The notes: generated by a model from the sequence alone, not told the origin. A stretch of DNA of 64,000 bases from Rhodothermales bacterium (GCA_017643395.1 JAEPNP010000005.1:124001-188000); one strand, 5' to 3'. Positions 22,504 to 40,373 are shown, numbered from the stretch's first letter. Made by a program: numbers and translations.

Positions 22504-22539
22504 GCCGGCGACTCGCTCAACCTCACTGAGCTCGCCGGC
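22504..22539 (-). terminator. Imperfect hairpin overlapping the end of oppF-like gene
   Basis: Arms GCCGGCGA (22504-22511) and TCGCCGGC (22532-22539), plus an inner GCTCA/TGAGC pair offset by a three-base bulge, form a strong hairpin whose loop contains the stop codon at 22523-22525. There is no T-run after it, so it may be an mRNA-end-stabilising structure or a weak terminator. Confidence 0.4.
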
Positions 22540-23362
22540 GCCGCACCGGCTCGGAGGCACTGACCCAACCTCGAGCGAACGCAACCGCGTCGATGTCCAA
22601 ACTGGCCGCGAGCAGTTTGCGACCGTATTCGGACCGTAGCCGCCCGGTGGCGAATTGCTCTCTTTGGGCAATCTCCACCACCCGGCCTGACCGCAGAATG
22701 CAGACCCGATCGCACACCGCAGCGGCAAGCCGCAGGTCGTGTGTGATAATGAGGAGCGTTAAATCGAGCGACTCCTTGAGTTCCAACAGGAAACGCAGCA
22801 GCTCCCGCTGCCAGGCCACGTCAAGGCCGGATGTCGGTTCATCGCAGATCAACAGCTTCGGTTGTGTGGCGACAGCCCTCGCGAATGCGACACGGCGCTT
22901 CTCCCCGCCCGACAAGCCTGCAGGTCGCCTCCCGAGGAGCGATGCTGCCAGCCCCAACCTTTCCAGGAGTGCGGCAGCCTCCGCCTCAACGTCACGGACT
23001 TCCCGTCGATGAAGCTTGAAGGCCTGCTCAAGGGTTTGAAGCACAGTGCGGCCAGGATTCAGCGATTGATCCGGGTGCTGGAAGAGCAGCCGGATTCCTC
23101 CGGAGACGACGCTTCTCCATGCGCGATGAGAGACGCTGCCTCTCTCGAGCCCTTCGTAGACCACCCTTCCGGAGCATCTCTCCAGTCCGGCAATTACGCG
23201 GGCCAGGGTGGTCTTCCCCGATCCGCTTTCGCCAATGACGCCCAACACCTCTCCCGCAGCTACACCAAGGGTGACGTCTCGAAGTATTTCGATCTCTCCG
23301 GCGCGGGATCCGCGAACCTTCTTCCGCACGGTGACATGTTCCAGTCCGAGCAATTCCGTCAT
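22523..23362 (-). CDS. Oligopeptide-type ABC importer ATPase, second subunit (DppF/OppF-like)
   Basis: 279 residues. Walker A GESGSGKT (44-51), signature LSGGEKRRVAFARA and Walker B LLICDEPTSGLD are intact, followed by the switch His in ITHDLRLAAAVCD. The QHPDQSLNPGRTV segment is typical of the OppF/DppF subfamily. It couples ATP hydrolysis to the two permeases encoded upstream. Last gene of the ten-gene operon; its ATG overlaps the preceding stop as ATGA. The usual cysteine-rich iron-sulfur C-terminal motif of Opp ATPases is not evident here. Confidence 0.92.
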   Translation of the reverse strand: MTELLGLEHVTVRKKVRGSRAGEIEILRDVTLGVAAGEVLGVIGESGSGKTTLARVIAGLERCSGRVVYEGLERGSVSHRAWRSVVSGGIRLLFQHPDQSLNPGRTVLQTLEQAFKLHRREVRDVEAEAAALLERLGLAASLLGRRPAGLSGGEKRRVAFARAVATQPKLLICDEPTSGLDVAWQRELLRFLLELKESLDLTLLIITHDLRLAAAVCDRVCILRSGRVVEIAQREQFATGRLRSEYGRKLLAASLDIDAVAFARGWVSASEPVRRRRAQ

Positions 23363-24162
23363 GAAGCCAGTCCTGCGTACGCGTCTCGAAGCCGCAGCGT
23401 GTAGGGATGTCTATTCTCTCGGGAGCCAATCAGCAGCTCTTCTGCGGTGCCCCCGTCCACCAGTTCTCCCTGGCGCATGACCACGATGCGGTCCACCATG
23501 GCTCCCAGTACCGCCAGGTCGTGAGAAACAAGCACCAACGCCGTCTCGGCCGGCGGACACGCTCGGGATATCGCATCGAGCACGGACACCTGAACCAAAG
23601 CGTCCAGCTGGGTGGTCGGTTCGTCGGCAAGAAGCACGACCGGGTTCTGCAGGAGTCCGAGTGCCGTGGCCACACGCTGACACTCGCCGCCGGAGAGCTG
23701 ATGCGGATAGGACCTGAAAACGCGTTCCGGATCCCGAAGGCCGAGACTGCCGAGTGTGTCCATCACCCGACTCCCGGCCTCATCGGTGCCCCATCCACGA
23801 AGGGCCGGAAGCTGCAAGGCCTGTCGGCCTATGGACAGGTACGGCGAGAGGGAGTTCTTGGCTTCCTGGAAAACCATGGCCGCCCCGCCGCTTGCTCTCA
23901 GCAAGGGCGATTCGTCTGGTGGCACGGTGCTCAAGTCCCACTCTTCGCCGATAAAGGTCAGCGATCCCGAGCGATAGAAGGGAGGCTGCAGCAGCCCCTG
24001 GATTGCTCGGAGAGTCAGTGACTTGCCAGACCCGGACTCGCCGGCAATGCCGAGCCGCTGGCCCTTGTGCACGTCAAAGCTGATCCCGCGCACCAGCCTC
24101 AATTCTGACTGGTCGGTGTGCAGGCCCACCTTGAGATCTCGCACGGACAGAAGCGGTTCCAT
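23359..24162 (-). CDS. Oligopeptide-type ABC importer ATPase, first subunit (DppD/OppD-like)
   Basis: 267 residues. Walker A GESGSGKS (41-48), Q-loop in MVFQEAKNSLSPYL, signature LSGGECQRVATAL and Walker B VVLLADEPTTQLD are all present, with the switch His in LVSHDLAVLG. At 267 residues it is shorter than typical OppD (about 320-330), lacking most of the C-terminal extension. Starts four bases after the OppC-like gene and overlaps the OppF-like gene by four. Confidence 0.92.
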   Translation of the reverse strand: MEPLLSVRDLKVGLHTDQSELRLVRGISFDVHKGQRLGIAGESGSGKSLTLRAIQGLLQPPFYRSGSLTFIGEEWDLSTVPPDESPLLRASGGAAMVFQEAKNSLSPYLSIGRQALQLPALRGWGTDEAGSRVMDTLGSLGLRDPERVFRSYPHQLSGGECQRVATALGLLQNPVVLLADEPTTQLDALVQVSVLDAISRACPPAETALVLVSHDLAVLGAMVDRIVVMRQGELVDGGTAEELLIGSRENRHPYTLRLRDAYAGLAS

Positions 24163-24166
24163 CTGG

Positions 24167-25321
24167 TTACCCCTCTGTCTCTGTGGTGCGGGCCAGATAG
24201 TTCAAGGCGCCCACCGTCGCCAGCACCACGGAGATCGCTGCAGCGAACCCCCAGAACTCACCCGATGGGATGCGTTCGCGCGAGTCAAGAAGCAGAGTGC
24301 CCCAACTGACGTCCGGCGCCTGAATGCCGATGCGCAGGTAGCTGAGGGTAACCTCCAGCACCACGGCGAATGAAAACACGCCGAGTGACGCAGCGGTGAT
24401 CTGCCTCACGAGGTTGAAGCGAACGATGTCGCTGGCCACGATCGCGAAGGGAGACTCTCCGAGTTCACGAGCTGCTTCGACCCAATCTCTTGAAGCCAAT
24501 TCGGCCACCAGTTGCCTCGTCGCGGCCGCAACCCTTGGCGCCATGACAACGCCACCCATCACCGCGATCCAGATCAACTGAAATCCTGAGATGACGGCTA
24601 CCACGAAGAACGCGACGAGTATCGGAACCGACTCTACGGCGTTGCTGAACCAGTCAAAGACACGACCCGTGCGTTCGAAGTAGCCCGCAACCGAGCCTCC
24701 GAGCACACCCAGCACCATGGCAACCAGCGTAAACAGGGCTGCATAGCTCATCGCCCAGAACCCCCCTATCCGCACAATAGACAGGACCGATCGTCCAAGG
24801 CGATCCGTTCCAAGCAGGTAATTCCGGTCAGCCCCAACCAGGGTAAACGCGAGTAGCTCTGGCTGGGGGCCCCGCCTGGCGAGAACGCGGACCATGTGTC
24901 GTCCGCGCGAAACCTGCTGACCCGGCCATCTGAGCACACCGGCCTGCAGCGTCATTCCGGGCGGTCCTTCGACCAGACAGGCATCCTGATCGGCTTCTGC
25001 AAGCACCGCCTGGTAGACTCTCCCTTCAACGGCAACGCGGTTGGGGATGCGCAGGGCAGGTGCCGAGGGGATCGTTTCCAGTGCATCCGCGGAGCAGGAG
25101 CTGCCGCCGCGCGAGCCGAACAAGCCGCCACTGGAGACCTCGGCGTGAGCCCGCTTGGTGTGGTCCGCTCCCAGCCAGGTCTGAAGCAGTCTGGACGAAG
25201 GTGGTACGTTGGCCAGGCTGAGATCACTTGACGGCTGGCGCTCCCCGACACACGAAGCGACGAGCATGGCTGTCAGCCACACGACCGCGGTGAGTTTGCC
25301 GTATGACCGTGATTTCGTCAC
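24167..25321 (-). CDS. ABC importer permease, DppC/OppC-like, with inserted periplasmic Ig-like region
   Basis: 384 residues from a GTG overlapping the previous stop as ATGTGA. The first hydrophobic segment (about 10-24) ends in a lipobox-like LVASC. Instead of the short loop of normal DppC, about 140 residues follow before the hallmark GTDRLGRSVLS (171-181) and the five-helix permease core with the ATPase-contacting EAARELGESPFAIV. The inserted part contains an Ig-like pattern, EGPPGMTLQAGVLRWP then GRHMVRVLARRG (about 118-151), resembling 'putative Ig' (He_PIG) domains. The core looks functional. The insertion may contact the substrate-binding protein or a lipoprotein of the operon. Confidence 0.85.
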   Translation of the reverse strand: MTKSRSYGKLTAVVWLTAMLVASCVGERQPSSDLSLANVPPSSRLLQTWLGADHTKRAHAEVSSGGLFGSRGGSSCSADALETIPSAPALRIPNRVAVEGRVYQAVLAEADQDACLVEGPPGMTLQAGVLRWPGQQVSRGRHMVRVLARRGPQPELLAFTLVGADRNYLLGTDRLGRSVLSIVRIGGFWAMSYAALFTLVAMVLGVLGGSVAGYFERTGRVFDWFSNAVESVPILVAFFVVAVISGFQLIWIAVMGGVVMAPRVAAATRQLVAELASRDWVEAARELGESPFAIVASDIVRFNLVRQITAASLGVFSFAVVLEVTLSYLRIGIQAPDVSWGTLLLDSRERIPSGEFWGFAAAISVVLATVGALNYLARTTETEG

Positions 25322-26229
25322 ATCCCTACCGGCTGCCGCAGTCGGGGGTCGGAGGCCCACGCCACGACCTCTGCCAGAATTCTCCCGACCAGCACGACGC
25401 TGATGAAGACGAGTGAGATCGCAATGACCAGCTCCACCTCCACGACGGAGCCGGCGATTCCCTGATAGACGGCCTGCGCCAGGCCGGAGAGATTGAACAC
25501 GAACTCCACCACAATGGCGCCACCAAGCAGATAAGACAGGTTGCCGGCAAGACTCGTGGTCACCGGGCCTGCCAGCCCCAGAGCCAGGTGTGGCCAAACC
25601 GGTGATTTTCGGGCCCGGAGGGCCTCGACGAATCGAATCTCCCTGATCCGGCGGGTTCTGCCGGAAACCGTGCTCATGAAGTCCGCCATGCGGGAATCCC
25701 CCAGCGCCAGAGCCACGGTCGGAAAGAGATAGGCGACTGCGGCCGCTGTGCCACCTTCTCGAAGCGCGAAGCCGGTCACCGGCTCGTCAATTACCCACAA
25801 CCCCGCTGCCGACAGGAGCAGCGCGGTGATCAGCGTCGGGGTGCCCGAGACCAGATTCAGCACACCGGCGAGTCGATCCGCTGCACCACCACTCCACCCT
25901 GCAAGGATGGCGATGGGCAGGCCAAGGAGGAACCAGATTCCGAGGGCCCCAAGCACCAGCCAGGAGGACCGGCTCGCCTTGTAGCCGACAAGCGTCCATA
26001 TCGGGGCGCCCTCGGCATACGTCGTACCGAACTCCCATCGGACCACCGTAGCCAGATTCTCCGCGAATCGCTGGCCTACGCTGGAGTCTCGGGATCGCGC
26101 ATCGGGACCCGTACCGTCGGACGATCGATACGGGTCGGTCGGGATCAGCGCCAGCAACGCCGCAACCATGACGAAGGCGAGCAGCGCGACGGCGACCGAA
26201 CGAGCTATTGCGACTAGCAGCGGCTTCAC
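25318..26229 (-). CDS. ABC importer permease, DppB/OppB-like
   Basis: 303 residues from a GTG start (MKPLLVAIARS), eight bases after the binding-protein gene. One N-terminal helix (about 8-30), a periplasmic loop, then five helices; the EAA-type ATPase contact is in RFVEALRARKSPVWPHLAL and the end has the NLSGLAQAVYQGI segment typical of DppB (GLG-x-L equivalents). Forms the heterodimeric channel with the DppC-like permease, with which it overlaps by four bases. Confidence 0.9.
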   Translation of the reverse strand: MKPLLVAIARSVAVALLAFVMVAALLALIPTDPYRSSDGTGPDARSRDSSVGQRFAENLATVVRWEFGTTYAEGAPIWTLVGYKASRSSWLVLGALGIWFLLGLPIAILAGWSGGAADRLAGVLNLVSGTPTLITALLLSAAGLWVIDEPVTGFALREGGTAAAVAYLFPTVALALGDSRMADFMSTVSGRTRRIREIRFVEALRARKSPVWPHLALGLAGPVTTSLAGNLSYLLGGAIVVEFVFNLSGLAQAVYQGIAGSVVEVELVIAISLVFISVVLVGRILAEVVAWASDPRLRQPVGM

Positions 26230-26237
26230 GTTGGCGC

Positions 26238-27836
26238 CTACCGCAGGAAACTCCAGTCGCTGATGTAGGAAAAGAAGTAGAAGGGGTGCAGCGCGGTGGC
26301 CACCAGGGTGTTCTTTACGGCAGCCATTTGCTCGACCTGATACAGAAAGAGATAGGGCTGATCAATCGCTAGTTCGTACTGGAGCGCCTGGGATGCCTGA
26401 CGAGCTTCCTCCGGGGTCGGCGCGCTGGCAATTCTGTCCAGTTGCTCGTCCACAATGCGATCTCCGTATCCCCCGACGTTGGAGTCCCCGCGGCTGGCAT
26501 CGCTGTGGAACAGGTAGGTCATCTCATACGAGGGATCGAAGGACCACTCCACCCAGATGATGTCGAAATCACGGGTCTCATGCAGGGTAGCCTGATAGTC
26601 GGATCGAATCCGGGGCTCGATCAGTATCTCGATGCCGATGCGCTCCATATAGCCCTTGAAGGCCGTGGCGACTGCCTGCATGGTCGTTTCGGTGCCGGCG
26701 TCTTCAATGACGGTCACCAGCCTGAAAGACAGGCGCTCCCCGCTGGGCGATTCCCTGATCTTGTCGCCGTTCCTGTCTGAGTACCCGGCTGCAGCCAGTT
26801 CCCGTCTGGCCATCAGGTGGTTGTAGGACAGTCTCGGCAACCCGGCCGCGTAGTCGGGGTGACCGGTCACCACCGGACCGTCCAGGACTTGGCCCAACCC
26901 GGCGTAGAAGTTGTCCAGAATCTCCTGCCGGTTCGTGCCAAGCGCCATCGCGCGGCGAATCGGAAGATCCGCGAGCAGCGGGTTTCTGAAGTTGTACGCA
27001 AAGGCGTGGAACGAGTACGCCTCGTACACTTTCGTGACAAAGTTGCCGTTGTCCTCGAAGATGGGGATCTGACTATGCGGAATCCGGACCACCAGGTCCA
27101 GGTTGCCACTGGATGCATAGTTGACCATGGTCGACTCGTCGCTGATGCGGAGCAGTTCAACCCGATCGATATTGGGTGCTCCCTTCCAGTACCCTTGATT
27201 GGCCGCGAAGCGGATGTAGTTGTCGTAGAGATTGATCTCGTCCAGCTGGTAGGGCCCCAAACCAACGGGCTCCTCGTCGAGCGACTTGCCGCCGGCGGAT
27301 TCGGTCTGCATCCCCGATGCGTTGAAGCGATGTGCAGGCAGCATGGGGAACTCCAGCAGCGCAAGGACCGCTTCTGCCTCCCGGCGTTCGCGGAGGTGGA
27401 GCACAACGGTCCGGGGGGCTGGAGTACTTACACTCTCCACGTACCTGGAAGACACCTGGCGCGCGTAGCTTGCCCCCCGTGCGTTCTTGGCATACTCGAG
27501 CGTGAACGCCACATCCGCCGACGTAAACGGAGTGCCATCCGACCAGGCTGCCTCTACGAGCCCGAGCGTGATGGAAGAGGTCGGGCCTGACTTGGGCTCC
27601 CAGTCCTGGATCAGGCGCAGAAACGGCTGTTTGAAGTCATGGTCGTAGATGGCGAGTCCTTCGTGAATCAGGCTGAACACACGCTGCTGTGCCGCCGTTG
27701 AGCGCTTGCCCGAATAGGGATCCATCCCGGGGATCGACGTGCTCTCGGCGTAGCGAAGGGTGGTTTGTGCCGCCGAAGGGAGTGCCAGCACGAATGCCAG
27801 AAGCCAGCAGGAAGAGAGGAATGTGCGTACAGTCAT
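26238..27836 (-). CDS. Family 5 extracellular solute-binding protein (oligopeptide/dipeptide type)
   Basis: 532 residues with a cleavable signal peptide (ending PSAAQ, no lipobox, so soluble periplasmic). The SBP_bac_5 pattern is clear: LRYAESTSIPGMDPY, EAAWSDGTPFTSADVAFTLE, PVGLGPYQLDEIN, LPIRRAMALGTNRQEILD and the C-terminal DFDIIWVEWSFDPSYEM. Binds peptides or another oligomeric ligand and delivers it to the permeases. Its placement inside a lipoprotein/beta-propeller operon next to a phospho-signalling operon suggests the ligand could also act as a signal. Confidence 0.92.
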   Translation of the reverse strand: MTVRTFLSSCWLLAFVLALPSAAQTTLRYAESTSIPGMDPYSGKRSTAAQQRVFSLIHEGLAIYDHDFKQPFLRLIQDWEPKSGPTSSITLGLVEAAWSDGTPFTSADVAFTLEYAKNARGASYARQVSSRYVESVSTPAPRTVVLHLRERREAEAVLALLEFPMLPAHRFNASGMQTESAGGKSLDEEPVGLGPYQLDEINLYDNYIRFAANQGYWKGAPNIDRVELLRISDESTMVNYASSGNLDLVVRIPHSQIPIFEDNGNFVTKVYEAYSFHAFAYNFRNPLLADLPIRRAMALGTNRQEILDNFYAGLGQVLDGPVVTGHPDYAAGLPRLSYNHLMARRELAAAGYSDRNGDKIRESPSGERLSFRLVTVIEDAGTETTMQAVATAFKGYMERIGIEILIEPRIRSDYQATLHETRDFDIIWVEWSFDPSYEMTYLFHSDASRGDSNVGGYGDRIVDEQLDRIASAPTPEEARQASQALQYELAIDQPYLFLYQVEQMAAVKNTLVATALHPFYFFSYISDWSFLR

Positions 27837-27839
27837 GAC

Positions 27840-28967
27840 TCAGTTGTTTACCACAGGTCCCTGGCGCTTCTCAGGGCTCGCTATGAACTGGGAAAGCTCC
27901 AGCGCGCTCATGGCGGGGGCGAACACTTCCTGGGCGGAGACCAATTGATCTAGCGCGAACCGGTGGGCCTCCATGGAGCCGGAGCGTTGTTGCGTGGCGA
28001 GGAGTTGCCGTGCGGACGCGGCAACCAGTCGAGAGGAAAGCCCGACTCGACCGGAACGAAAGAGCCTGTCGAGATCGAGGGCCGTGGCGTATTCCGGGCG
28101 GTTGATTCTGAGCACCGCGCGCAGAAAGAACTCTGTCGTGCTGTCCATGGAGCGCACCTGATTCAGCATCGGCGCGACCAGGCCGCGCACCTGGTCGGTA
28201 TCGCCCAACAGGCTCGCCGCGACGTAGGAGGCGATGGCCCGCTCTTCTCGTGTGCTCGGTTGCCCGAAATTCAGAGAAGGGTTCGTCGCACCACGCGCTG
28301 CGATGCCGTCGGCGACGAGCCGCTCCAGGGCTGTACCCGGCGACGCCGTCACCGCCTGTTCGCCAGACTCGAAAGTGGCAAGCAGGCCCATCAACCTGAC
28401 TTCGGGCCGAGAACTGTCTCTTGAATACGTCGCGGCCAGACGCAGGTCGATGGCGCCTGCAATGCGCAGGGCCGGCGCCGAGTAATAGCGCAGCTGGAAG
28501 CGGCCGTTGGAGGCAGCCACCTCTTCTGCCATGAACGAGTGGCCTCCCAGATCACCGATGGGGTCCGAATCGAGCCCGAAGAGCCCGGACATCCTGGCGC
28601 ACAGCCGCTCCGCAAGCGCATCCGGACTTCCCGAGCATATGTCCGTGACAGAGGCCCGCCCCAGACGATTCTGATAGCCACGGGGGCGGTCCGCACGGCG
28701 ATCCCAGTTGCCGTCCTGCACCCATTCGGCGTAGGTCTCGCCGTTACGGGTCACGATCTCAGCGAGGTCCAGGAAGGCGAAGCCCCTCAGGAAGTGTACG
28801 CGCGTCAGGACATCCGGGTTTGCCCCCTGAGCGTATGCCGCCTCAACAGCCTCAAACAGCCGGCCCTCGGAAGCCAGTTGCTCGGGAGTCTGTGCGCCGG
28901 CCGGCCTGTGAGAGGCGATCAGCGTGCAGAGCAGTAGCGCCGAGGTCAACCCTGATCGGTACCTCAT
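27840..28967 (-). CDS. Unrecognised exported protein, helical-repeat-like
   Basis: 375 residues. A signal peptide ends near PAGAQ, followed by mostly alpha-helical sequence with Ala/Leu spacing suggestive of TPR or other helical repeats (EQLASEGRLFEAVEAAYAQG near the N-terminus; RLVAASARQLLATQQRSG near the end). No catalytic motif seen and no family recognised. Its ATG overlaps the upstream lipoprotein stop (ATGA) and its stop is three bases before the binding-protein ATG, so it is firmly inside the operon and probably a periplasmic accessory to the transporter or lipoproteins. Confidence 0.75.
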   Translation of the reverse strand: MRYRSGLTSALLLCTLIASHRPAGAQTPEQLASEGRLFEAVEAAYAQGANPDVLTRVHFLRGFAFLDLAEIVTRNGETYAEWVQDGNWDRRADRPRGYQNRLGRASVTDICSGSPDALAERLCARMSGLFGLDSDPIGDLGGHSFMAEEVAASNGRFQLRYYSAPALRIAGAIDLRLAATYSRDSSRPEVRLMGLLATFESGEQAVTASPGTALERLVADGIAARGATNPSLNFGQPSTREERAIASYVAASLLGDTDQVRGLVAPMLNQVRSMDSTTEFFLRAVLRINRPEYATALDLDRLFRSGRVGLSSRLVAASARQLLATQQRSGSMEAHRFALDQLVSAQEVFAPAMSALELSQFIASPEKRQGPVVNN

Positions 28968-30796
28968 TGGGCAACCCTCTCAAACTCCTGACGCCGGGCT
29001 CCTTCCCAGTTGCGGAGGACTTCGCCTTTGCTGCCCACCGACAGCACCCGGAAGGACTCGCTCGTAGCTTGCTCCAGCGCCACTTCCAGCCCTTCAGTAA
29101 TGAAGTCCGGTAGCTCGATCTCCTCCCCTGCCGGTGCCAGGAAGTACCGTTTCAGAGAGCGGTCGTTTTCGTCCCCGTCCATATCGGTAACCTCAAGAAC
29201 AAGGATCAGCTCACCCAGGGCGAGATCGCTCGAGATGGTTTTGCCGGAGAACCGTCTGTCCGAACTCGCGAAAAGGTCGATGTTTGCTGAGGCGTCCAGA
29301 TAGGACAACGTGTATTGCACGAAGGCCGTATCAGGGGTCGTGGCAGCGTTCTCGGCAATCACCGTCAGCGTGTACTCCCCACCGCGAAGCAGGCGGTCTG
29401 AGACGTTGACCTGCGAGGTTGCCTCCGGCTCAGCCTGAACATCCCCTGACACCAGACGGAGATCGTCCGGCACAGGACCGAATACCTCGTGAGGCACATC
29501 ATGCTCGAACGTGAGACTGGTCAGATGCCGGCCCTGGAGCAGCGTGTCCCTCGAGGACGCCTCCATGACCATAAGCTCACTTGCATTGTTGAGCGAAAGG
29601 GTCCACCGATGCCTTGCCGCCGCTTCGTCCCCTGTTATACCGAACATGGGGCTCTCGGCAAACGTCTCCGAGTCGATGGATACTTCGGGCTGCCGGGCCG
29701 CGGGGACGGACGAAAACGACTGACCCTCAGCGCCGGATGACGCCGAGTCCAGCACGGCCTCCATGTGGAGGACTTCGGCAATGACCTCCCAGGTGCGCGC
29801 GCCTTCCGAGCTGTCGAAGCCCGAGCAGCGACCCTCACCGTCGACCAGGTCCTGACTGGTGAGAACGCAGGCCTGCGAATCGTCTACCAACACCCGGAAT
29901 CGATCATAGTCCCTCGGCTCACGGGTCGTATAGTCGACCTGGAACACCAGCTCCTCCGCTCCTTCTGTAAACACGACCGGGTCGTCGGATGTCGGGCTGG
30001 TTGCCTGGACCGCAGTCGCTGGAAAGAGGACCTCCAGGGTGTCGCTTGCGACCAGGGCACCCAGTCTGTTGCCTAACAGAATTTCGGGGGCGGAGTCATC
30101 GAAGCCCTCGAATTGGCTGTTGGCCAGGGCCCGGTGCAGCTGAATGGTACTCTCATTTTCGGGAGTGACCGACCAGATGAACACGCCATCGTTCCCGGAA
30201 AAATCGGCCGAGAAGGCGGGTTCCGTCACCACCTCGTCATCGACGAGCGATCCGACAGCGATGTGCCACGCGTGTGTCTGTGCGTCACTGGACCAGGAGA
30301 ATTCGATGTCTCCTGCCAGGGCAACGTCACCGGAGCGTGGCGTCAGAAGCTCTACTGCATCCGGCAGGCTCGGGAGCAGTTGAATGTCTGCGGTGACCAG
30401 CGTGCCGGCCCCTCCACCCGCTTCGCCGACCTCGATCTCAACGGTGCGAGTTGACTCTTCCGTCTGGAGGTCATCCGTGGCCGACAGGGTCACCACGTCC
30501 CGATTGGCGGACACCTGGGCGGTGACCCCGGATTCCGCGGTAACGGCGACGATGACTGCCGAGTCCACGTTTGCCACAAGATCCGCTGCGTTGAATGTGA
30601 TGGTTTTGGCATGGAAGCCGGCCACCAGCCACAAGTCGTTGTCCAGCGGCGGAAGCGGCCTGGGTTGCTCGGCGACAATCTGACTACGAAGCGCATCCAC
30701 ATCGTCCGGTGGAGCACCTACGGTGTCGCATCCGAGCCCGGACACCGTCCAGAGCGTCAGGCACAGGATGCCGATGAGCAGACGTGCATGCTGCAT
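28964..30796 (-). CDS. Large beta-rich lipoprotein of unknown function
   Basis: 610 residues with lipobox GLGC (Cys23), so membrane-anchored on the periplasmic or surface side. The sequence is acidic and beta-rich, with a segment like an FN3 or Ig domain (IEFSWSSDAQTHAWHIAVG) and several similar strands, implying tandem beta-sandwich domains. No enzyme motif. A good Shine-Dalgarno-like GGAGG stands eight bases before the ATG, unusual in this window. The gene starts three bases after the beta-propeller gene and overlaps the next by four. Likely a binding or scaffold protein. Confidence 0.78.
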   Translation of the reverse strand: MQHARLLIGILCLTLWTVSGLGCDTVGAPPDDVDALRSQIVAEQPRPLPPLDNDLWLVAGFHAKTITFNAADLVANVDSAVIVAVTAESGVTAQVSANRDVVTLSATDDLQTEESTRTVEIEVGEAGGGAGTLVTADIQLLPSLPDAVELLTPRSGDVALAGDIEFSWSSDAQTHAWHIAVGSLVDDEVVTEPAFSADFSGNDGVFIWSVTPENESTIQLHRALANSQFEGFDDSAPEILLGNRLGALVASDTLEVLFPATAVQATSPTSDDPVVFTEGAEELVFQVDYTTREPRDYDRFRVLVDDSQACVLTSQDLVDGEGRCSGFDSSEGARTWEVIAEVLHMEAVLDSASSGAEGQSFSSVPAARQPEVSIDSETFAESPMFGITGDEAAARHRWTLSLNNASELMVMEASSRDTLLQGRHLTSLTFEHDVPHEVFGPVPDDLRLVSGDVQAEPEATSQVNVSDRLLRGGEYTLTVIAENAATTPDTAFVQYTLSYLDASANIDLFASSDRRFSGKTISSDLALGELILVLEVTDMDGDENDRSLKRYFLAPAGEEIELPDFITEGLEVALEQATSESFRVLSVGSKGEVLRNWEGARRQEFERVAQ

Positions 30797-30799
30797 GGT

Positions 30800-32599: not shown

Positions 32600-33717
32600 A
32601 GCTGGCGAAGCTTCTCTTCGATGCTTTGAATGCGTTCAGGAACCGACGCCGCGGCTGCGGTCAGATCTGCGGGAGCCGGCTGCTGCGGAGGAAATCGGGC
32701 AACCAGCGCCTCGAAGTCCCTCAGTTCTCTGGCGGCTCGAATGAGATGCGAGCGGGCCGCATTGTTGTTGTTGACGTCGATGGCTCGATCGGCGCGGATC
32801 TGGAAGGCACGTCCCTGGAAGTAGGACGCCCAGGCCTTGTAGACCGCCTTCCTGTCGTCGGGGAAAGTGCCCGAGTACCGAATCATGTTGTCCGCGGTCG
32901 CAGCGAGCTCATCGGCCATTCGGCGGCTTTCCAGAACCACTCCCAGGTTGTAGAGCGCGCGCCCGTTTCGGGGATCGGCCTCAAGCACGGTTCTGAATGC
33001 CGTCGTGGCGTCTTCCAGGTTCTGGGACTGAAAGAAGCCTATGCCACCGTCGATCAGGCCCTCCAGGCACTCCGCGACCGACAGGCCGGCCGCATCCGCG
33101 CAGTTGGTGGTCTGGGCAAAGGCGACGGCACCCCCATGCTGCCGTTCCTCTCCAGCCTGAACCGTAATCGGAATCTCACCGTCCAGACTTTGCGATCCGG
33201 TGGTGGCAGTCCAGGAGTATTGCCCCTCATTCAACTGAACACAGAGTTCCCCGTCTCCGCGCCTGACTGAAGTGGGCTCCACCTCGTCATTTGTCGCATT
33301 AAAGAAGCGAAACGACTCCACGGTGGTCTCAAAACAGTACCACCCGCTGCGTTCTCCGCAGACCGGGTTGTCACTGTTTGCGCAGTCAATGGGCTGCTCC
33401 GGTCCGCTTTCCTGAGGCTCGCCGGCGCCCGCGGGGCCTGGCGGTCTCGGCGGCAGAATCGTTACACCAGCCGTTCCTGGCGTGGGTGCTTCGCCACCTC
33501 CAACCACGATCGTTCCCTTTTCCTCGTAGGTCTCGGTGTCTTCCTGTTGGACCGGCCCAGGACCGGTTTCGGCATTCTCCTCGAAATCCAGGGGCTCGAC
33601 TTGAGCGATACCCTCAGATCCCGGCGCGGGGTTGGGATCCGAGGTCTGTTGGCCGCCACAGCCCATGCCCAGCAGGCCGGCGAGCAGCGTCGCGAGGAAT
33701 GAAGTACGGCTATTCAT
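32596..33717 (-). CDS. TPR-containing lipoprotein
   Basis: 373 residues from the ATG at 33717, which starts the lipoprotein signal with lipobox LGMGC (Cys20); a longer in-frame start upstream would bury it. A Pro/Gly/Glu-rich linker (about 21-115) leads to a small disulfide-bearing beta domain (CANSDNPVCGERSGWYCFE) and then TPR-like helices (GFFQSQNLEDATTAFRTVLE, NGRALYNLGVVLESRRM). Such proteins usually scaffold envelope complexes. Overlaps the preceding gene by eight bases and the following by four. Confidence 0.8.
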   Translation of the reverse strand: MNSRTSFLATLLAGLLGMGCGGQQTSDPNPAPGSEGIAQVEPLDFEENAETGPGPVQQEDTETYEEKGTIVVGGGEAPTPGTAGVTILPPRPPGPAGAGEPQESGPEQPIDCANSDNPVCGERSGWYCFETTVESFRFFNATNDEVEPTSVRRGDGELCVQLNEGQYSWTATTGSQSLDGEIPITVQAGEERQHGGAVAFAQTTNCADAAGLSVAECLEGLIDGGIGFFQSQNLEDATTAFRTVLEADPRNGRALYNLGVVLESRRMADELAATADNMIRYSGTFPDDRKAVYKAWASYFQGRAFQIRADRAIDVNNNNAARSHLIRAARELRDFEALVARFPPQQPAPADLTAAAASVPERIQSIEEKLRQL

Positions 33718-34162
33718 TGTTGACCGGGCGCACTCCCCGCCGGAGGATGGTCCCCATGCCGGACGCCGTCGTATCGAGTCCGGGTCTGAACTCGGCATGC
33801 CAGTTCAGTCGAATCACCATGGTGTCCAATGGAATCTGGTTGCGAGCCATGTCTACGAGAAAGACTCCGGTCTCTGCGCCGACCGTCTCCGCGGTTGCCC
33901 GGATCTCGTAGCTCTGCAGCGCTTCATTCGGCGGGTCTTCCAGGACGCGATAGACACCGAGCGAATCTGTGCGGCCGAGGATATACCGGGGCGTGGATTC
34001 GATAAGCACGTCCGGAATCGCCAACGCACTCGTGGTGTCCGGACCGAGCACAAGAATGTGAAAGGCCGCCCGAGGACCCATGACGAGGGGCTGGGGCGAT
34101 GTAGCCGTCGATGCGCAGCCGGTCAGCACCGCGGCAAGTAGCGTCGGGAGAAGCGTTTTCAT
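33710..34162 (-). CDS. Small lipoprotein, first gene of the leftward operon
   Basis: 150 residues with lipobox LTGC (Cys16). The rest is beta-rich (AAFHILVLGPDTTSALAIPD, IPLDTMVIRLNWHAEF), with the look of a carboxypeptidase-regulatory or transthyretin-like fold, and no catalytic motif. It is the promoter-proximal gene of the ten-gene operon, followed without a gap by the TPR lipoprotein. Confidence 0.75.
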   Translation of the reverse strand: MKTLLPTLLAAVLTGCASTATSPQPLVMGPRAAFHILVLGPDTTSALAIPDVLIESTPRYILGRTDSLGVYRVLEDPPNEALQSYEIRATAETVGAETGVFLVDMARNQIPLDTMVIRLNWHAEFRPGLDTTASGMGTILRRGVRPVNNE

Positions 34163-34226
34163 TCAGGGCTCTGCGGGGAAGGTTGGCGTGACCCGGATAC
34201 ACGTCTTCCTAGCATCTCACAGCACT

Positions 34227-34278
34227 TGCAGACGGCTGACCGGCATTTCCCGCAGAAAAAAGTTCGACGCCGTCTGCA
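34227..34278. promoter_or_regulatory. Perfect 10-bp inverted repeat in the divergent promoter region
   Basis: TGCAGACGGC at 34227-34236 and its exact complement GCCGTCTGCA at 34269-34278 flank a 32-base centre that includes an A-run. The site is 65 bases from the lipoprotein start and 77 bases from the FHA-protease start, so one dimeric regulator or a cruciform could control both operons. No adjacent regulator gene was seen. Confidence 0.5.
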
Positions 34279-34354
34279 GATGCGCGGAACTGGCAGGACC
34301 TGTTCACAAAGCGCTTCGCCAAGAAGGCCTCCCTAACGACCTGCCCTCACGACC

Positions 34355-36334
34355 ATGGAGATTCAACTTGAAATCACCGGAGACTCCGGATCACGTAGAA
34401 TTACCACCGATCAGTTTCCCTACCGCATCGGCCGAGATTCGCAAAACGACCTGATTTTGGAGGGAGCCACCCATGATCTGGTGAGCGCTCACCACGCCGA
34501 ACTGCGGTCAGACGGCAAGCAGATCGTGCTTCACGACCTGCAGAGCACCAACGGCTCCTGGGTTGACGGGAAGCGCGTGCAGGGCTCAGCCGTGATTCGA
34601 TCCGGCGCCAGCGTCGAATTGGGCAAACGGGGCGGTACAACCATAACCGTGCGTATTCCGGGAGCCACGGATGCTACGCGGATTGCCGCCCAGCCGACGG
34701 TGATCGCGACTTCGGCCGCAGACGAGCTTCTGCTGGACTTTTCCTCCGGCTCACTTCGCGGTCGCCAGACGACGATTGCCGGAGACGCTGTGTTGGGTAG
34801 GGATCCTTCCTGCGACGTCGTCTTCGATCCAAATCGCGATTCCGCCGCATCCGCACGCCACGCAGAGATTCGTGTCCGGGGAGGTCAGCACTGGATCCGC
34901 GATCTCGGAAGCACCAACGGCACCTTTGTCAACGGCCGACGAGTAGAAGAGAAACAACTCCGATCCGGGGATGTGATCGAGTTCGGCCAGGGCGGACCCA
35001 CTGCGCGGGTGTCCTCCGGAGCGGCAAGCGCCGTTGCTGAAACAGTTGTTGCCAGTTCTCCGAGCGCGCGGGACGTCGGGGCCACCCGGGTCGCCGACCG
35101 CAACCCCAGCCGCCCCGACATCGGCTCCTCTCCGGGGCAGGGCACCATTCAGATGTGGATTGACCGGGCCGTCGAGCAAGCCAGGCAGAACCCGGCCACG
35201 GTCTTTTTTGAGCGGGTGGCCGATGAGGCCGCAGGTCGAAGCAAGAAGACGGCTCGCCTCTATTCGGTGAGTGTGTTCGGCGTGCTCCTGCTGGGTCTCG
35301 TGGCTGTTGCCGTCATCAACTGGAGGGGGCTGCAGGGGCTGGAAGCCCGTTTTGCGAGTCAGATCAGCGAGGTTCGGGGAGAGTTGGAACTCCAGGAGGG
35401 CATTCTCCAGAACAACGTGGACAACCTGACCGCCCGACTTGACGACGTCGCCGGAGGCATGGTGGACACGACGATGTTCCAGGAGGCACTGGAAGCCGAG
35501 CGCACGAGGTTGGCGGCTGTTCGAAGCCAGATCCGCAAGCTCAACGAGCAGGCCGCATCGGCAACACCGGAAGCCGCCGCTGCCGCAGCAGGTTTCCAGG
35601 CGGCCGCCCAAAGCGTCGAGGCGTCCCTCTTCATGCTGGCTGTGCGCCGGGGCGGTGAACTGATCCCAATGTGCACGGCCTTTGCGGTAGGATCGGATGG
35701 CACCCTCTTGACGAACGCGCATTGCGTGGAAGGCGCTTCGGGGCTACCGCTTGTCGCCGTTAAATCAGGCAGCCGACGAGGCAAGGAGTACGAGGTCTTC
35801 GCCTCCGAAATCCATCCCGCGTACAACCCCAATCGCGGCGGGGCTTTTGACCTGGCGCTGCTTCGACTGGAGACCCATGGCGACGCGTTCACGGCCATGG
35901 CTCTCGCATCCGCGGAGGAACTCGAGGGCATCGGCCCAGGCTACCAGATTGCCGTCTATGGCTTCCCGGGAGAGGTCATGAACCTGAATCGGCCCAATGC
36001 GACCTATTTGCCGGGAGCGGTGACCAGACTCTCCGCCGGCGGAACCACCATGCTGCACTCAGCCACCACCAGTCGTGGCACAAGTGGCGCACCGGTACTT
36101 AACGATCGAGGGCAACTGGTGGGTGTCAACTCCTTTGGAACCCCCTCCAGCCAGCGAGCCGAGGTTGTTGTTGCTCGGGATGAGTCGGGCGCCGTGATCA
36201 TCGGTCCGGACATGCAGCCCGTGACCACCATGCGGAGGGCACCGGTCGCCGCAGCCTTTGGGGCCGTGCACGGCCGCTATGTGCGGGAATGGCTGCAGGG
36301 CAAAATAGCTGCGGGGGCACAGCAGGCCGAATGA
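34355..36334 (+). CDS. FHA-FHA-TM-coiled coil-trypsin-like serine protease
   Basis: 659 residues. Two FHA domains (about 5-100 and 125-215) carry the phosphothreonine-binding signatures GRDSQND with SAHHAEL and STNGS, and GRDPSCD with ARHAEI and STNGTF. A single membrane helix (about 304-322) is followed by a coiled coil (about 328-400) and an S1 protease domain (about 422-640) with triad His456 (TNAHCV), Asp499 (FDLALL) and Ser577 (GTSGAP). By the positive-inside rule the FHA domains are cytoplasmic and the protease periplasmic. It would thus sense phosphorylated partners inside and cleave outside. First gene of the four-gene signalling operon. Confidence 0.92.
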   Translation: MEIQLEITGDSGSRRITTDQFPYRIGRDSQNDLILEGATHDLVSAHHAELRSDGKQIVLHDLQSTNGSWVDGKRVQGSAVIRSGASVELGKRGGTTITVRIPGATDATRIAAQPTVIATSAADELLLDFSSGSLRGRQTTIAGDAVLGRDPSCDVVFDPNRDSAASARHAEIRVRGGQHWIRDLGSTNGTFVNGRRVEEKQLRSGDVIEFGQGGPTARVSSGAASAVAETVVASSPSARDVGATRVADRNPSRPDIGSSPGQGTIQMWIDRAVEQARQNPATVFFERVADEAAGRSKKTARLYSVSVFGVLLLGLVAVAVINWRGLQGLEARFASQISEVRGELELQEGILQNNVDNLTARLDDVAGGMVDTTMFQEALEAERTRLAAVRSQIRKLNEQAASATPEAAAAAAGFQAAAQSVEASLFMLAVRRGGELIPMCTAFAVGSDGTLLTNAHCVEGASGLPLVAVKSGSRRGKEYEVFASEIHPAYNPNRGGAFDLALLRLETHGDAFTAMALASAEELEGIGPGYQIAVYGFPGEVMNLNRPNATYLPGAVTRLSAGGTTMLHSATTSRGTSGAPVLNDRGQLVGVNSFGTPSSQRAEVVVARDESGAVIIGPDMQPVTTMRRAPVAAAFGAVHGRYVREWLQGKIAAGAQQAE

Positions 36335-37038
36335 TCCGCTCCTCTTCAATTTCCTACGTCTGCGCGGCCCTCCTGGCGACTGCAGTGCTGGTCGCCGGCT
36401 GCGCCGGGCCCAAGAATTCCACCTCGGAGCAGAACAAGAACGACGACGCCTCCGAAGTGCCGTACGCGGTGCTCGCCTCCCACTACGCCGCAGGCCAGAA
36501 TTTCGTGCGCTCAGCCAACTGTGACGCGGCCAGGCTCGAATTGCAGTGGGTCATGGAACGGGACGTCAACCTCCACTTCCTCAACGCGCTCCGGTTGTAT
36601 GACCTGTGCTCCACCAGTCCCGAGTCACGGAGAGAGGTGGAGCGTGCGTTCTCGGTCGTCGGTGCGCGCATGGACTCCCTGAAGGGAGACACGGTGGGCA
36701 TGGAGGCCGTGGTCCGCAGCTGGCGGGCCGACTTCGAGTATTCGGCCCGGACCGGCCAGCGCATTCAGGCTGAACTTGACCGCATCCCCCGGCTGAAGGG
36801 AGAGTTGCCTTCCCCTCGCCGGGTGGCGTCCGAAAGCGAATACTACCGGGGCCGTGTTCTCGTCACCGCGCTGATCGATGCCACGGGTCTGCCGCTGCAC
36901 GCCTTCATTTCGGAGACTTCCCTGCGGCACTCGTACGACAAGGCCGCTGTGGAGGTGATGCAGAAGATTGAATTCGAGCCGGCAGTGGCTGGCGGTACCC
37001 CCGTGCGTGAGTTCGTCACCATGCCTGTAGAGTTTTAA
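36331..37038 (+). CDS. TonB C-terminal-domain lipoprotein
   Basis: 235 residues from an ATG overlapping the protease stop (ATGA). Lipobox VAGC gives lipid-anchored Cys24. The last ~70 residues (GRVLVTALIDATGLPLHAFI through FEPAVAGGTPVREFVTMPVEF) match the TonB_C fold. Unlike true TonB there is no inner-membrane N-terminal helix of ExbB/D type and no Pro-rich spacer, so energy transduction is unlikely. Probably a periplasmic adaptor, possibly a substrate or regulator of the protease. Confidence 0.8.
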   Translation: MIRSSSISYVCAALLATAVLVAGCAGPKNSTSEQNKNDDASEVPYAVLASHYAAGQNFVRSANCDAARLELQWVMERDVNLHFLNALRLYDLCSTSPESRREVERAFSVVGARMDSLKGDTVGMEAVVRSWRADFEYSARTGQRIQAELDRIPRLKGELPSPRRVASESEYYRGRVLVTALIDATGLPLHAFISETSLRHSYDKAAVEVMQKIEFEPAVAGGTPVREFVTMPVEF

Positions 37039-37044
37039 GCCGCC

Positions 37045-38379
37045 TTGCTGGAACTGGTTGTCTACACCCATGTGGGGCTTGTCCGCTCCGCCAACGAAGA
37101 CGACTTCCTCCTGCTGTCCGGGCACACCTCCCTTACGCGTCGGCAGGGAGACGCGCTGACGTGGAACGTGCCGGTCGATGGCAGTGTGCAGGGCGTGTTC
37201 GACGGGATGGGAGGCATGGAGGCGGGCGACGTCGCGAGCGGGATTGCCGCCGGTGCCCTGGCCGATTATCTCCGTAGTTCCCGTCCGGATTTTGACTCGC
37301 CCGTGGCGTTCTGGAATCGCGCCATTGGACATGCTAACGCGTCCATCGTGCGAGAGGCCGACCGACGCGGCAAGGCTGGTCAGATGGGATGCACGGCAAC
37401 CGTACTTGCCACCTCGCCGGCCAGGATGGTGGTCGCACACGTTGGGGACAGCCGCGCCTATCTGTATCGAGACGGACGGCTCGTGCGAATCAGCGAGGAC
37501 CAGAGCCTGGTCCAGGAACTGGTCAACTCCGGTGAACTGACCGAAGAAGAAGCAGAGCGCCACCCCCAGCGCAGCGTCATCCTGCAGGCTCTCGGTGTGC
37601 AACCAACCATCACGCCGCAGATCTGTAGCTGGGCGCCAGCTACGGGAGACCTGTTGCTGATATGCAGTGACGGACTATCAAGCCTGGTTGGGGATGCGGT
37701 GCTACAGAGTATCCTCGCCGGCTCTCAGGACCTGGCCGGGACCGGGCAGCGCCTGATCGATGAGGCGATCCGGCGTGGTGGGACTGACAACGTGACGATC
37801 GTGCTGGCCCGGGTGCCAACGGTCCCTGCAGCCGAGCCCACCGGCGCCATTCAAACGCTACAAGCCTTTCGCACGGAGAAGAACACGCGGAAGCGGTCCG
37901 GCGCGCGGGCCCTGACGGTATTCACTGCCGTCGCCGCACTTGTCCTCGTGGCCGTGATTGCCCTGCTTCCCCGGTACCCGGAGGCGACGGAACCCATCGG
38001 GCCCACCGCCAGAGACCTGGCCTGGAGAGACCTCCAGGACCGGGCGGTGAACCTGGCGACTGAAGGTGAGGAGGTACTTCTCACGGCGGCCATGGTACCC
38101 GACTCGGCGCTGCGCTCCGCAAGGCCCTGGATCACTCACCTGGACTCGTTTCAGGCCTCTGCGGTCACGGATTCACTGGTGGACGGGCAACGCCACCTCC
38201 TGTCGGGTGAGCGCGCGCTTGCCGCGCACCGGGTGGCGGTGGACTCCGCCCTCAGCGTCCTGTATGCCCCGCCCGATGCGGACTCGCTCACCGTGGCAGA
38301 CACCACAGGGATCACCCTGTCGCCGACTGACGCTCCCGTGAATCCGGTACCAGACTCGTTGGAGGCCTCCCTGCAGTGA
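37045..38379 (+). CDS. PP2C-type protein phosphatase with membrane anchor and periplasmic tail
   Basis: 444 residues starting from a TTG (MLELVVYTHVGLVRSANEDD). Metal-binding motifs are VFDGMGGMEAGD (Asp53), VAHVGDSRAYLY, LICSDGLSS (Asp209) and GGTDNVTIV (Asp248), so the catalytic domain (about 1-260) looks active. A transmembrane helix lies at about 288-309 and a roughly 130-residue periplasmic tail follows. It would dephosphorylate Ser/Thr proteins, including products of the kinase gene with which it overlaps by four bases. Confidence 0.9.
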   Translation: MLELVVYTHVGLVRSANEDDFLLLSGHTSLTRRQGDALTWNVPVDGSVQGVFDGMGGMEAGDVASGIAAGALADYLRSSRPDFDSPVAFWNRAIGHANASIVREADRRGKAGQMGCTATVLATSPARMVVAHVGDSRAYLYRDGRLVRISEDQSLVQELVNSGELTEEEAERHPQRSVILQALGVQPTITPQICSWAPATGDLLLICSDGLSSLVGDAVLQSILAGSQDLAGTGQRLIDEAIRRGGTDNVTIVLARVPTVPAAEPTGAIQTLQAFRTEKNTRKRSGARALTVFTAVAALVLVAVIALLPRYPEATEPIGPTARDLAWRDLQDRAVNLATEGEEVLLTAAMVPDSALRSARPWITHLDSFQASAVTDSLVDGQRHLLSGERALAAHRVAVDSALSVLYAPPDADSLTVADTTGITLSPTDAPVNPVPDSLEASLQ

Positions 38380-40373
38380 AGCCCGGTGATCTGGTCAAAG
38401 GGAAGTACGAGCTGCTTGAGCTCGTCGGGAAAGGCGGCATGGGCCTTGTCTTCAGGGTCCGGTGCCTTGAGGGAGCGGATACACTGCCAGAAGGTCTCGC
38501 GCCTGGCGACGAATGTGCGCTCAAGGTGGTGCATCAACACTTGTTGGTGGAGGACGACTTTGTAAAGCGGTTCGCCCGCGAAGCGCGGAACTCGCTGAAA
38601 ATCCAGGGTCACCCCGGAATCGTCTCGGTCTACGAATACGATCAGACGGACGATGGCTCGCCGTACCTGGTGATGGAATTTGTGCGTGGTCGCACGTTGG
38701 CCGAGGTGCTGGAGGCCCATCCGAAGGGGGTCGACCTACAGACCGGGTACCGCATCGTGCGAGGCCTGGCGTTTGCCCTCGCTCACATGCACGGTGCCAA
38801 GAATGACCGGGGTGCTCCCGCCCCCGTCGTTCACCGAGACCTGAAGCCCGGCAACGTGGTGCTGACCGACGAGGGCGAAGTCAAATTGCTGGACTTCGGT
38901 ATCGCCAAGTCTGACGGCACCAAGCTGAGCCGGACCGGACTGGTGGTGGGCACACCGGCCTACATGTCTCCCGAGCAGTGGCGGGGGGAAGTCCTGGATG
39001 GGCGCTCGGATCAATACGCGCTCGGATTGCTCGCCTTCGCGCTCCTGACGGGCGAGGTCGCGTTTCAGTCCGAGACCGCGACCGGTTACATGCATCAGCA
39101 TCTCTCCGGGCCTATTCCGGATGCTCGACGCAGGCGCCGTGGCATCACGAGGAAGGCGTCCAAGGCCATCACACGAGCCCTTGCAAAAAAGCGGGACTCC
39201 CGGTATCCGTCTTGCTCCGCATTCGCGCTGGAGTTCCCTGCCGAGCGGGCTCCAAGGTCGAAACCAAGACCAGCTGTTGCGCCGGAGGCGAGCCCCAAGA
39301 GCCCCGTCCCGAAAACGGTTGTATCCGGCGGTCAGGCTGATGCCGGCTCGCCGGGACGCGTGCCTGGGTGGATATCGGTTCCTGCGGGCCTGCTTGCGGT
39401 CCTGGTCGTCACCCTGGGCATCGTCTACTACGGAAGCTGGGCTGGGGAAGCCACCGTCGAGGCGCCTCCACCCGTATCTCCGGATATCCAGTCCGCCACC
39501 CTGACGCCGCCGCCCCCTGCCATGGGCGCTCTGGCTCTTCAGGCCGACACGCCGGTCCGGGTCATCATTTCAGACTCTCTCACGGTTGGCGTCTCTCCCG
39601 GCTCCTCGGCGCGCAGCAACTTGCGTCCGGGGTCCTATCGCATCAGAATTCAGTCTACGCGACAGCGATCGGTAAGCGTGGTGCAGGTCGTGAACGTGGA
39701 AGCGGGCGTGCTGCAAACCCTGGACATTCGGCTGGCGGGCCAGGTGGAGGCGGCCCGGCAGAACGCGCGATTGGCCAGTGCCTGGAGTTCTTTTTCTGAG
39801 GGCGCCCGGGCGACGGCGCAGTCGACCACGACGTCGACTCCCGTTTCGCTGTTGCTCTGGGACAACTTCGCCGAGGATTCAGGGACCTGGGAATTCGCGG
39901 CCGGAGGCACCCTGCAAGAGGGGCGCCTGGTTCTGGAGGCCGATCGCGCCGCAGCGTACGTGCCCACAGGCATCACCCATCGGAACTTTGCGATACGTTT
40001 CACGCTGGCGCACCTCGGGGGCACGGCCAGCGGCGGCGCCGGGGTTTCGTTCGGATTCCGGCAGTGGGGTCGGGACCAGCACTTCGTGCTTCTCGATGCC
40101 TACGAGCGGCGTGCAGTGCGAATCGGCACGATTGCCGACACCTGGATATCCGCCCTCCCCTGGACGTCCAGCCCCGTCATCACCAGAGATGTCAACGTGG
40201 TGGAGCTCATCGTCTCCCGCGGCGAAGCCGAAGTCCTGGTGAATGGGCGGAGCATCGGCAGGGCCTCCCTGCCCAGCGCAACGGCGGGCTCCGTGGTTGC
40301 GCTCATGGTTGGTGGCGGACCCGCCACGTACGCGTTTGACGATGTAGTGGCTGTGGGGCTTGGCGACGGGTAG
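38376..40373 (+). CDS. Transmembrane Ser/Thr protein kinase with PEGA-like and lectin-like sensor
   Basis: 665 residues from a GTG overlapping the phosphatase stop (GTGA). The kinase domain (about 9-285) has GKGGMGLVFRV, Lys50, catalytic HRDLKPGN (Asp155), DFG (173-175) and GTPAYMSPEQW. After a linker comes a membrane helix (about 331-353), then a PEGA-like repeat (about 412-454, LRPGSYRIRIQ) and a beta-sandwich (about 495-660) of the LamG/DUF1080 type (DNFAEDSGTWEF, GVSFGFRQWGRDQHFVLLD). The extracytoplasmic part could bind a glycan or peptidoglycan-related ligand. With the phosphatase and FHA-protease it forms a complete write-erase-read set. Confidence 0.92.
   Translation: MKPGDLVKGKYELLELVGKGGMGLVFRVRCLEGADTLPEGLAPGDECALKVVHQHLLVEDDFVKRFAREARNSLKIQGHPGIVSVYEYDQTDDGSPYLVMEFVRGRTLAEVLEAHPKGVDLQTGYRIVRGLAFALAHMHGAKNDRGAPAPVVHRDLKPGNVVLTDEGEVKLLDFGIAKSDGTKLSRTGLVVGTPAYMSPEQWRGEVLDGRSDQYALGLLAFALLTGEVAFQSETATGYMHQHLSGPIPDARRRRRGITRKASKAITRALAKKRDSRYPSCSAFALEFPAERAPRSKPRPAVAPEASPKSPVPKTVVSGGQADAGSPGRVPGWISVPAGLLAVLVVTLGIVYYGSWAGEATVEAPPPVSPDIQSATLTPPPPAMGALALQADTPVRVIISDSLTVGVSPGSSARSNLRPGSYRIRIQSTRQRSVSVVQVVNVEAGVLQTLDIRLAGQVEAARQNARLASAWSSFSEGARATAQSTTTSTPVSLLLWDNFAEDSGTWEFAAGGTLQEGRLVLEADRAAAYVPTGITHRNFAIRFTLAHLGGTASGGAGVSFGFRQWGRDQHFVLLDAYERRAVRIGTIADTWISALPWTSSPVITRDVNVVELIVSRGEAEVLVNGRSIGRASLPSATAGSVVALMVGGGPATYAFDDVVAVGLGDG

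Follow-up and report, generated by a model that had tools for sequence, protein, structure and literature searches.

In the T6SS of Pseudomonas aeruginosa, threonine phosphorylation runs through PpkA, Fha1 and PppA, which are preceded by the outer-membrane protein TagQ, the periplasmic protein TagR and the ABC-like TagTS (PMC10482370). In Mycobacterium tuberculosis, the kinase PknF and the ABC transporter Rv1747 are encoded in one operon, where the kinase modulates the transporter and FHA domains take part in the circuit (PMC3908365). In bacteria, networks of Ser/Thr kinases usually act on many targets, and these are hard to assign.

Here we describe a locus within 64,000 nucleotides of a Rhodothermales bacterium (GCA_017643395.1, JAEPNP010000005.1:124001-188000; hereafter the window), in which genes for an ABC transporter and several predicted envelope proteins lie beside those for a kinase, a PP2C phosphatase and an FHA protein. 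Gene content, tight packing, linkage in further genomes and the exclusivity of the phosphatase and usually of the FHA protein together indicate that transporter, envelope proteins and phospho-switch probably constitute one functional system. A literature search returned nothing on this gene composition. The composition is undescribed among known bacterial systems, and the earlier note's statement to that effect held in literature and NCBIfam searches, the T6SS pathway TagQRST-PpkA-PppA-Fha being similar in logic.

Gene content of the divergent locus

Ten leftward genes diverge from four rightward genes, and open reading frames together with Pfam matches located all fourteen (Table 1), in agreement with the earlier description of a ten-gene leftward operon facing FHA-trypsin, TonB_C lipoprotein, PP2C and kinase genes. 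The left arm matched ABC_tran twice, BPD_transp_1 twice, SBP_bac_5 and PD40, with sub-threshold matches to DUF5683 and TPR; the right arm matched FHA twice with Trypsin_2, TonB_C, PP2C and Pkinase. Two starts were corrected, that of permease C (PermC) to GTG 25321, four bases within the end of permease B (PermB; mechanical call, TTG 25597), and that of the TPR lipoprotein to ATG 33717. With refined starts the left-arm spacings are -4, 4, -4, 8, 3, -4, 3, -4 and -8 bp and those of the right arm about -4 (ATG at 36331), 6 and -4 bp, such that neighbours within each arm do overlap or lie at most eight bases apart (-8 to +8 bp), as had been claimed; the enforced stoichiometric co-expression claimed with it goes beyond what a DNA sequence shows. 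Around the 192-bp gap between the arms there was no match to a sigma-70-type promoter or terminator; because the two halves are divergent in the window, separate regulation is possible. Lipoboxes and signal peptides of the locus proteins were read by eye. The right flank (window 41219-63346) reads as a polysaccharide cluster with a UDP-sugar dehydrogenase and an SLBB/Poly_export protein, and by eye also sulfate-activation, chain-length, asparagine synthase-like, epimerase and polymerase-like genes.

Table 1. Features of the locus in window coordinates
Feature	Position	Strand	Evidence
ABC ATPase 2, OppF/NikE-like	22523..23362	-	PF00005 9e-29; Walker A GESGSGKT, LSGG, DEP intact
ABC ATPase 1, OppD/NikD/CntF-like	23359..24162	-	PF00005 3e-25; motifs intact
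Permease C, DppC-like TMD with predicted Ig-like insert	24167..25321	-	BPD_transp_1
Permease B	25318..26229	-	BPD_transp_1 5e-07
Periplasmic solute-binding protein (SBP), SBP_bac_5	26238..27836	-	2.8e-62
Exported protein	27840..28967	-	signal peptide by eye; without Pfam match
Large lipoprotein	28964..30796	-	lipobox VSGLGC by eye
Periplasmic beta-propeller with C-terminal DUF5683 (TM2-like) membrane region	30800..32599	-	PD40, sub-threshold DUF5683
TPR lipoprotein	32596..33717	-	sub-threshold TPR; hhalign
Small lipoprotein	33710..34162	-	lipobox VLTGC by eye
Divergent intergenic region, 192 bp	34163..34354	.	spacing of refined starts
FHA-FHA-TM-trypsin protein	34355..36334	+	FHA x2 and Trypsin_2; motifs, TM
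TonB_C-domain lipoprotein	36331..37038	+	TonB_C 3e-06; ATG 36331 overlaps FHA-trypsin stop
PP2C phosphatase, one TM, periplasmic tail	37045..38379	+	PP2C match; motifs, TM
Ser/Thr kinase: N-terminal kinase, one TM, periplasmic C-terminal region	38376..40373	+	Pkinase 7e-33; motifs, TM

The Opp/Dpp-type importer set is complete, with an SBP_bac_5 protein, two BPD_transp_1 permeases and two ATPases with intact Walker and signature motifs. The closest solved structure to the SBP family profile is AppA (1xoc, 2e-89). None of the five ABC proteins reached an NCBIfam equivalog cut-off (the best SBP match, Opp4A, scored 123 bits against a cut-off of 650, and permeases and ATPases also fell short), and the oligo_HPY domain was not detected in ATPase 1. 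The transporter probably takes an oligopeptide or a comparable oligomer as its ligand; a guess based on the amine-binding Asp of OppA was dropped, as AppA too seems by sequence to lack this residue.

Compact DppC/OppC permeases have no domain before the LGTD motif, whereas in PermC about 100 additional residues, on the periplasmic side, separate TM1 from LGTD, its core TMD aligning from residue 163 and that of E. coli DppC from residue 74. The insert is common to all four complete Rhodothermia PermC sequences read (the window genome and G018, G041 and G035, whose kinship is given below), and is shorter or absent in relatives from other phyla. The modelled insert is a beta-sandwich (pLDDT about 72-88 over residues about 70-139) whose best Foldseek matches include many Ig, FN3 and cadherin domains (best E 0.01). 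We therefore assign it, with moderate confidence, as a predicted periplasmic Ig-like domain, an unusual permease architecture.

On the rightward strand, the kinase, PP2C, FHA and trypsin-triad motifs are intact, and each signalling protein has a single strong hydrophobic segment (FHA-trypsin 303-321, PP2C 290-308, kinase 332-350). At the level of sequence, the signalling half is thus complete, with kinase, phosphatase and phosphothreonine reader, and all three proteins appear to cross the membrane once, both as the earlier note proposed; the set has the make-up of a Hanks-type Ser/Thr signalling module. Predicted topology gives the kinase and phosphatase periplasmic regions and places the trypsin domain on the periplasmic side. 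The model of the kinase ectodomain (pLDDT 32) was too low for use. A sequence search of 195 other class genomes sampled yielded no full-length FHA-FHA-TM-trypsin orthologue. The TonB_C lipoprotein, not seen at the other loci, is accessory. An anti-phage role was considered and rejected, the search giving generic kinase and protease matches only.

Linkage of transporter and signalling genes in other genomes

A three-sequence SBP profile, run across the class Rhodothermia (all 245 genomes), identified the family in five: the window genome, G018 (same family), G041 (same order), and two further class members, G035 and G211. The family stands clearly apart in a sample of 394 genomes from the phylum, its members scoring 718-743 bits against 279 for the best sequence outside it. 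The family is absent from two same-genus genomes, and a comparison with same-genus G181 gave differing flanks and no clean empty site. A Ser/Thr kinase was found at the locus in all five SBP-bearing genomes, accompanied by PP2C and FHA in four.

The closed single-contig genome of G035 (4.3 Mb) contains a co-directional array of kinase, FHA, PP2C, small lipoprotein, TPR/PEGA lipoprotein, DUF5683 propeller and exported protein, which continues in the same direction through SBP, PermB, PermC, ATP1 and ATP2, with all gaps between -20 and 24 bp. G211 has the same order up to the contig end after PermB. For G018 and G041 linkage was inferred from matching contig ends. In G018, kinase, FHA, PP2C, vWA, small lipoprotein, TPR lipoprotein, propeller and exported protein run to the end of C8, and SBP to ATP2 begin C11; in G041, kinase, TPR lipoprotein, propeller and large lipoprotein run to the end of C85, and C106 begins with lipoprotein, exported protein and SBP to ATP2. 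The G041 kinase has no PP2C or FHA match nearby. In G018, the genes just upstream of kinase-FHA-PP2C (L036:4400-8775) encode a SUMF1-like protein of the FGE-sulfatase type and a vWA protein of 1040 aa. The suggestion that the two halves belong together is upheld by the kinase at five of five Rhodothermia SBP loci and by the single operon-like array in G035 and G211; judged by these sequence comparisons, the locus is real and conserved.

Family counts over whole genomes (window genome, G018, G035 and G211; PF00481 and SpoIIE families not counted) gave exactly one PP2C_2 match in each of the four, always at the locus. The locus FHA protein is the sole one in the window genome, G018 and G035, while G211 has one further match. 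The only Pkinase match in the whole of G035 is at the locus; in the window genome (4.5 Mb) the locus kinase is one of nine. By a hand estimate, which ignores shared descent (the true figure is larger) and assumes joined contigs in G018, the probability that the sole PP2C of four genomes would by random placement fall no farther than about 11 kb from the SBP is ~1e-9. Since the sole PP2C (four genomes), sole FHA protein (three) and sole kinase (G035) adjoin one ABC transporter, the genome itself here indicates the target.

The envelope proteins are conserved to different degrees. Orthologues of the beta-propeller/DUF5683 protein are 29-34% identical in G018 and G041 and were also found in G035 and G211, and the C-terminal 140 residues of the TPR lipoprotein align with its relatives (hhalign E 1e-7). 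The exported protein occupies the same position in relatives, and the small lipoprotein shares its position with small lipoproteins of G018, G035 and G211; homology to these positional equivalents was not detectable for either, and both are matched by position alone. In G041, the place of the large lipoprotein is taken by an Ig-rich lipoprotein. Downstream of the G035 ABC genes (L046:5967-17282), 655-aa and 2413-aa proteins both match the G041 large lipoprotein; the former ends by eye in a T9SS-like tail, and a transposase-like ORF separates the two.

A scan of genome contigs detected relatives of the ABC half in several other groups. One Poribacteria contig has the order kinase-PP2C-Ig lipoprotein-propeller-TPR-SBP-PermB-PermC-ATP1-ATP2. 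In contigs from Deltaproteobacteria, Deferrisomatales and Handelsmanbacteria, the ABC genes usually have genes for propeller, TPR or PEGA proteins beside them, and the sequence read, short for some contigs, contained no kinase; the transporter can thus exist without the switch. The earlier note regarded separation of the halves in most genomes as evidence against their association: this describes the relatives in other phyla, mostly without a kinase nearby, but not the Rhodothermia, where the halves are linked. At one Handelsmanbacteria locus (L055:2675-5823), two adjacent SBP genes of the same family precede the permeases.

Ordinary peptide-SBP loci taken from other parts of the phylum had no PP2C (0/20). 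Half of these loci (10/20; L089-L093, L095-L097, L103, L105) carry a different Ser/Thr kinase near the ABC operon, a kinase-NTPase-TPR protein of ~1190 aa, which in several immediately follows a permease C of enlarged size (>400 aa) and in both loci checked is itself followed by a GAF-histidine kinase. This linkage is a separate association on the SBP tree. These loci were therefore rejected as a kinase-free control, and PP2C alone gives a clean contrast.

Trees and architectures of the signalling cassettes

The five Rhodothermia SBPs form one clade (99/97) in which the window and G018 sequences are sisters (98/95), whereas a single clade for the five locus kinases was rejected (AU p 0.014). 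With the ABC half monophyletic and the kinases not, it follows that kinases of separate origin adjoin the same ABC half. The kinase of G041 falls among those of FHA-SLT cassettes (99/99); the window kinase took no firm place. The window PP2C falls with those of stand-alone cassettes, which are also its closest BLAST relatives, and a grouping with ABC-linked PP2Cs was not rejected (AU p 0.376). With this alternative standing and the window kinase unplaced, the idea that the trees prove a cassette swap was rejected.

Architecture provides a further view. The ABC-linked FHA proteins of G018, G035 and G211 consist of signal peptide, periplasmic domain, TM and FHA, an opposite topology to that of the window protein and with no protease, and the kinase topology of the window is likewise reversed relative to G018 or G035. 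Further class genomes contain FHA-TM-trypsin/PP2C/kinase cassettes without an ABC operon (L019-L023). Stand-alone cassettes with trypsin or SLT resemble the window in their three-protein signalling set and gene order, and differ in having no adjacent ABC or lipoprotein operon. In two SLT versions (L017:7662-14111, L018:5400-12058), FHA-TM-SLT, PP2C and kinase genes adjoin a fused VipA-VipB sheath gene. The FHA-trypsin protein, proposed earlier as a signature for finding the system, does not serve as one, given that such cassettes stand alone and that the relatives' ABC-linked FHA protein has neither protease nor the same topology. These architectures suggest, short of proof, that the signalling switch was replaced in the window lineage, and the trypsin domain, which lies outside the conserved system, is best regarded as having been added locally.

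Interpretation and comparison with known systems

We propose a model in which an Opp/Dpp-type binding-protein-dependent transporter, with an envelope assembly of lipoproteins and beta-propeller, would be served by its own membrane-bound phospho-switch: the kinase would write, PP2C erase and the FHA protein read. The periplasmic parts of kinase and phosphatase, the propeller, the lipoproteins and the Ig-like insert of PermC may form an envelope complex around the transporter, and cytoplasmic phosphorylation, with the FHA domain as its reader, would adjust transporter assembly or working. That the switch regulates the transporter is a tentative proposal, if a quite plausible one. More speculatively, and on a class sample of five genomes that partly share descent, the locus might represent a phospho-signalling machine of a new class in the envelope: a complete ABC importer with an Ig-domain permease would be its sensory/effector core, the cell's Ser/Thr phosphatase and FHA complement would be dedicated to it, and different kinase cassettes would have been recruited in evolution to the same transporter core.

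The main rival reverses the direction, with the transporter complex informing the kinase, and resembles TagQRST-PpkA (PMC10482370). The ABC proteins and lipoproteins would mainly sense a ligand or damage in the periplasm and act ahead of the kinase, following the logic of TagQ, TagR and TagTS ahead of PpkA, Fha1 and PppA (PMC10482370), with output elsewhere and transport secondary. The periplasmic regions on kinase and phosphatase fit this order of events. So does the FGE-sulfatase protein upstream in G018, as TagR is also of this type. We nevertheless consider it the less likely direction: the locus keeps the full set of a functional importer, including the binding protein and intact ATPase motifs, while TagTS has, to our knowledge, no SBP_bac_5 partner. 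A T6SS output is also missing from four of the five genomes, with no match to the sheath protein VipB in the window genome, G018, G035 or G211 (it is present in G041); without VipB in the window genome, T6SS membership of the locus was ruled out.

Two accessory operons might instead merely be neighbours in a variable envelope region, without direct phospho-control. The patchy distribution (5/245 genomes, with the two same-genus absences), the divergent halves in the window and the FHA-trypsin/PP2C/kinase cassettes that occur alone elsewhere are in keeping with this, yet it is improbable in view of the single co-directional arrays of G035 and G211, the placement of the sole PP2C (the hand estimate above, descent ignored) and the separately derived kinases beside the same ABC half. 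Least credible of all is a peptide-salvage role, in which the kinase switch controls the periplasmic trypsin domain and this makes peptides for the adjacent importer, since for all the intact triad and an SBP whose closest solved relative is the oligopeptide-binding AppA, the idea finds no support outside the window genome, the ABC-linked FHA proteins of G018, G035 and G211 (the last by sequence) having no protease and FHA-TM-trypsin elsewhere no adjacent ABC operon.

The preferred reading, of one system with its own switch, makes a question testable: whether Ser/Thr phosphorylation switches a binding-protein-dependent importer, or an importer drives a kinase. Among known systems, the MoxR-vWA ternary conflict system (PMC7159879) has no counterpart here, as the locus in the window encodes neither a MoxR AAA ATPase nor a vWA protein; at that of G018, vWA proteins are present. 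Opp/Dpp/App/Nik-type importers share the SBP_bac_5 protein, paired BPD_transp_1 permeases and paired ATPases, with AppA nearest by SBP profile, whereas the locus differs in scores under the equivalog cut-offs, the PermC insert, the absence of a detected oligo_HPY domain and the linked phospho-switch and lipoproteins. TagQRST-PpkA-PppA-Fha1 likewise joins kinase, phosphatase and FHA protein to an ABC-type complex and an outer-membrane protein (PMC10482370). The ABC component of the window locus differs from it in being of importer type, dependent on a binding protein and built from two permeases and two ATPases. We know of no counterpart in the TagQRST pathway to the propeller, the TPR lipoprotein or the Ig-insert permease. 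For an ABC transporter under the control of a kinase, PknF-Rv1747 is the closest precedent. Rv1747 is a predicted ABCG-type exporter with FHA domains inside the transporter polypeptide, whereas no FHA match was found in the ABC proteins of the window locus, where FHA is fused to TM-trypsin in a separate single-pass protein, the ABC transporter is of importer type, and PP2C and lipoproteins are linked to it.
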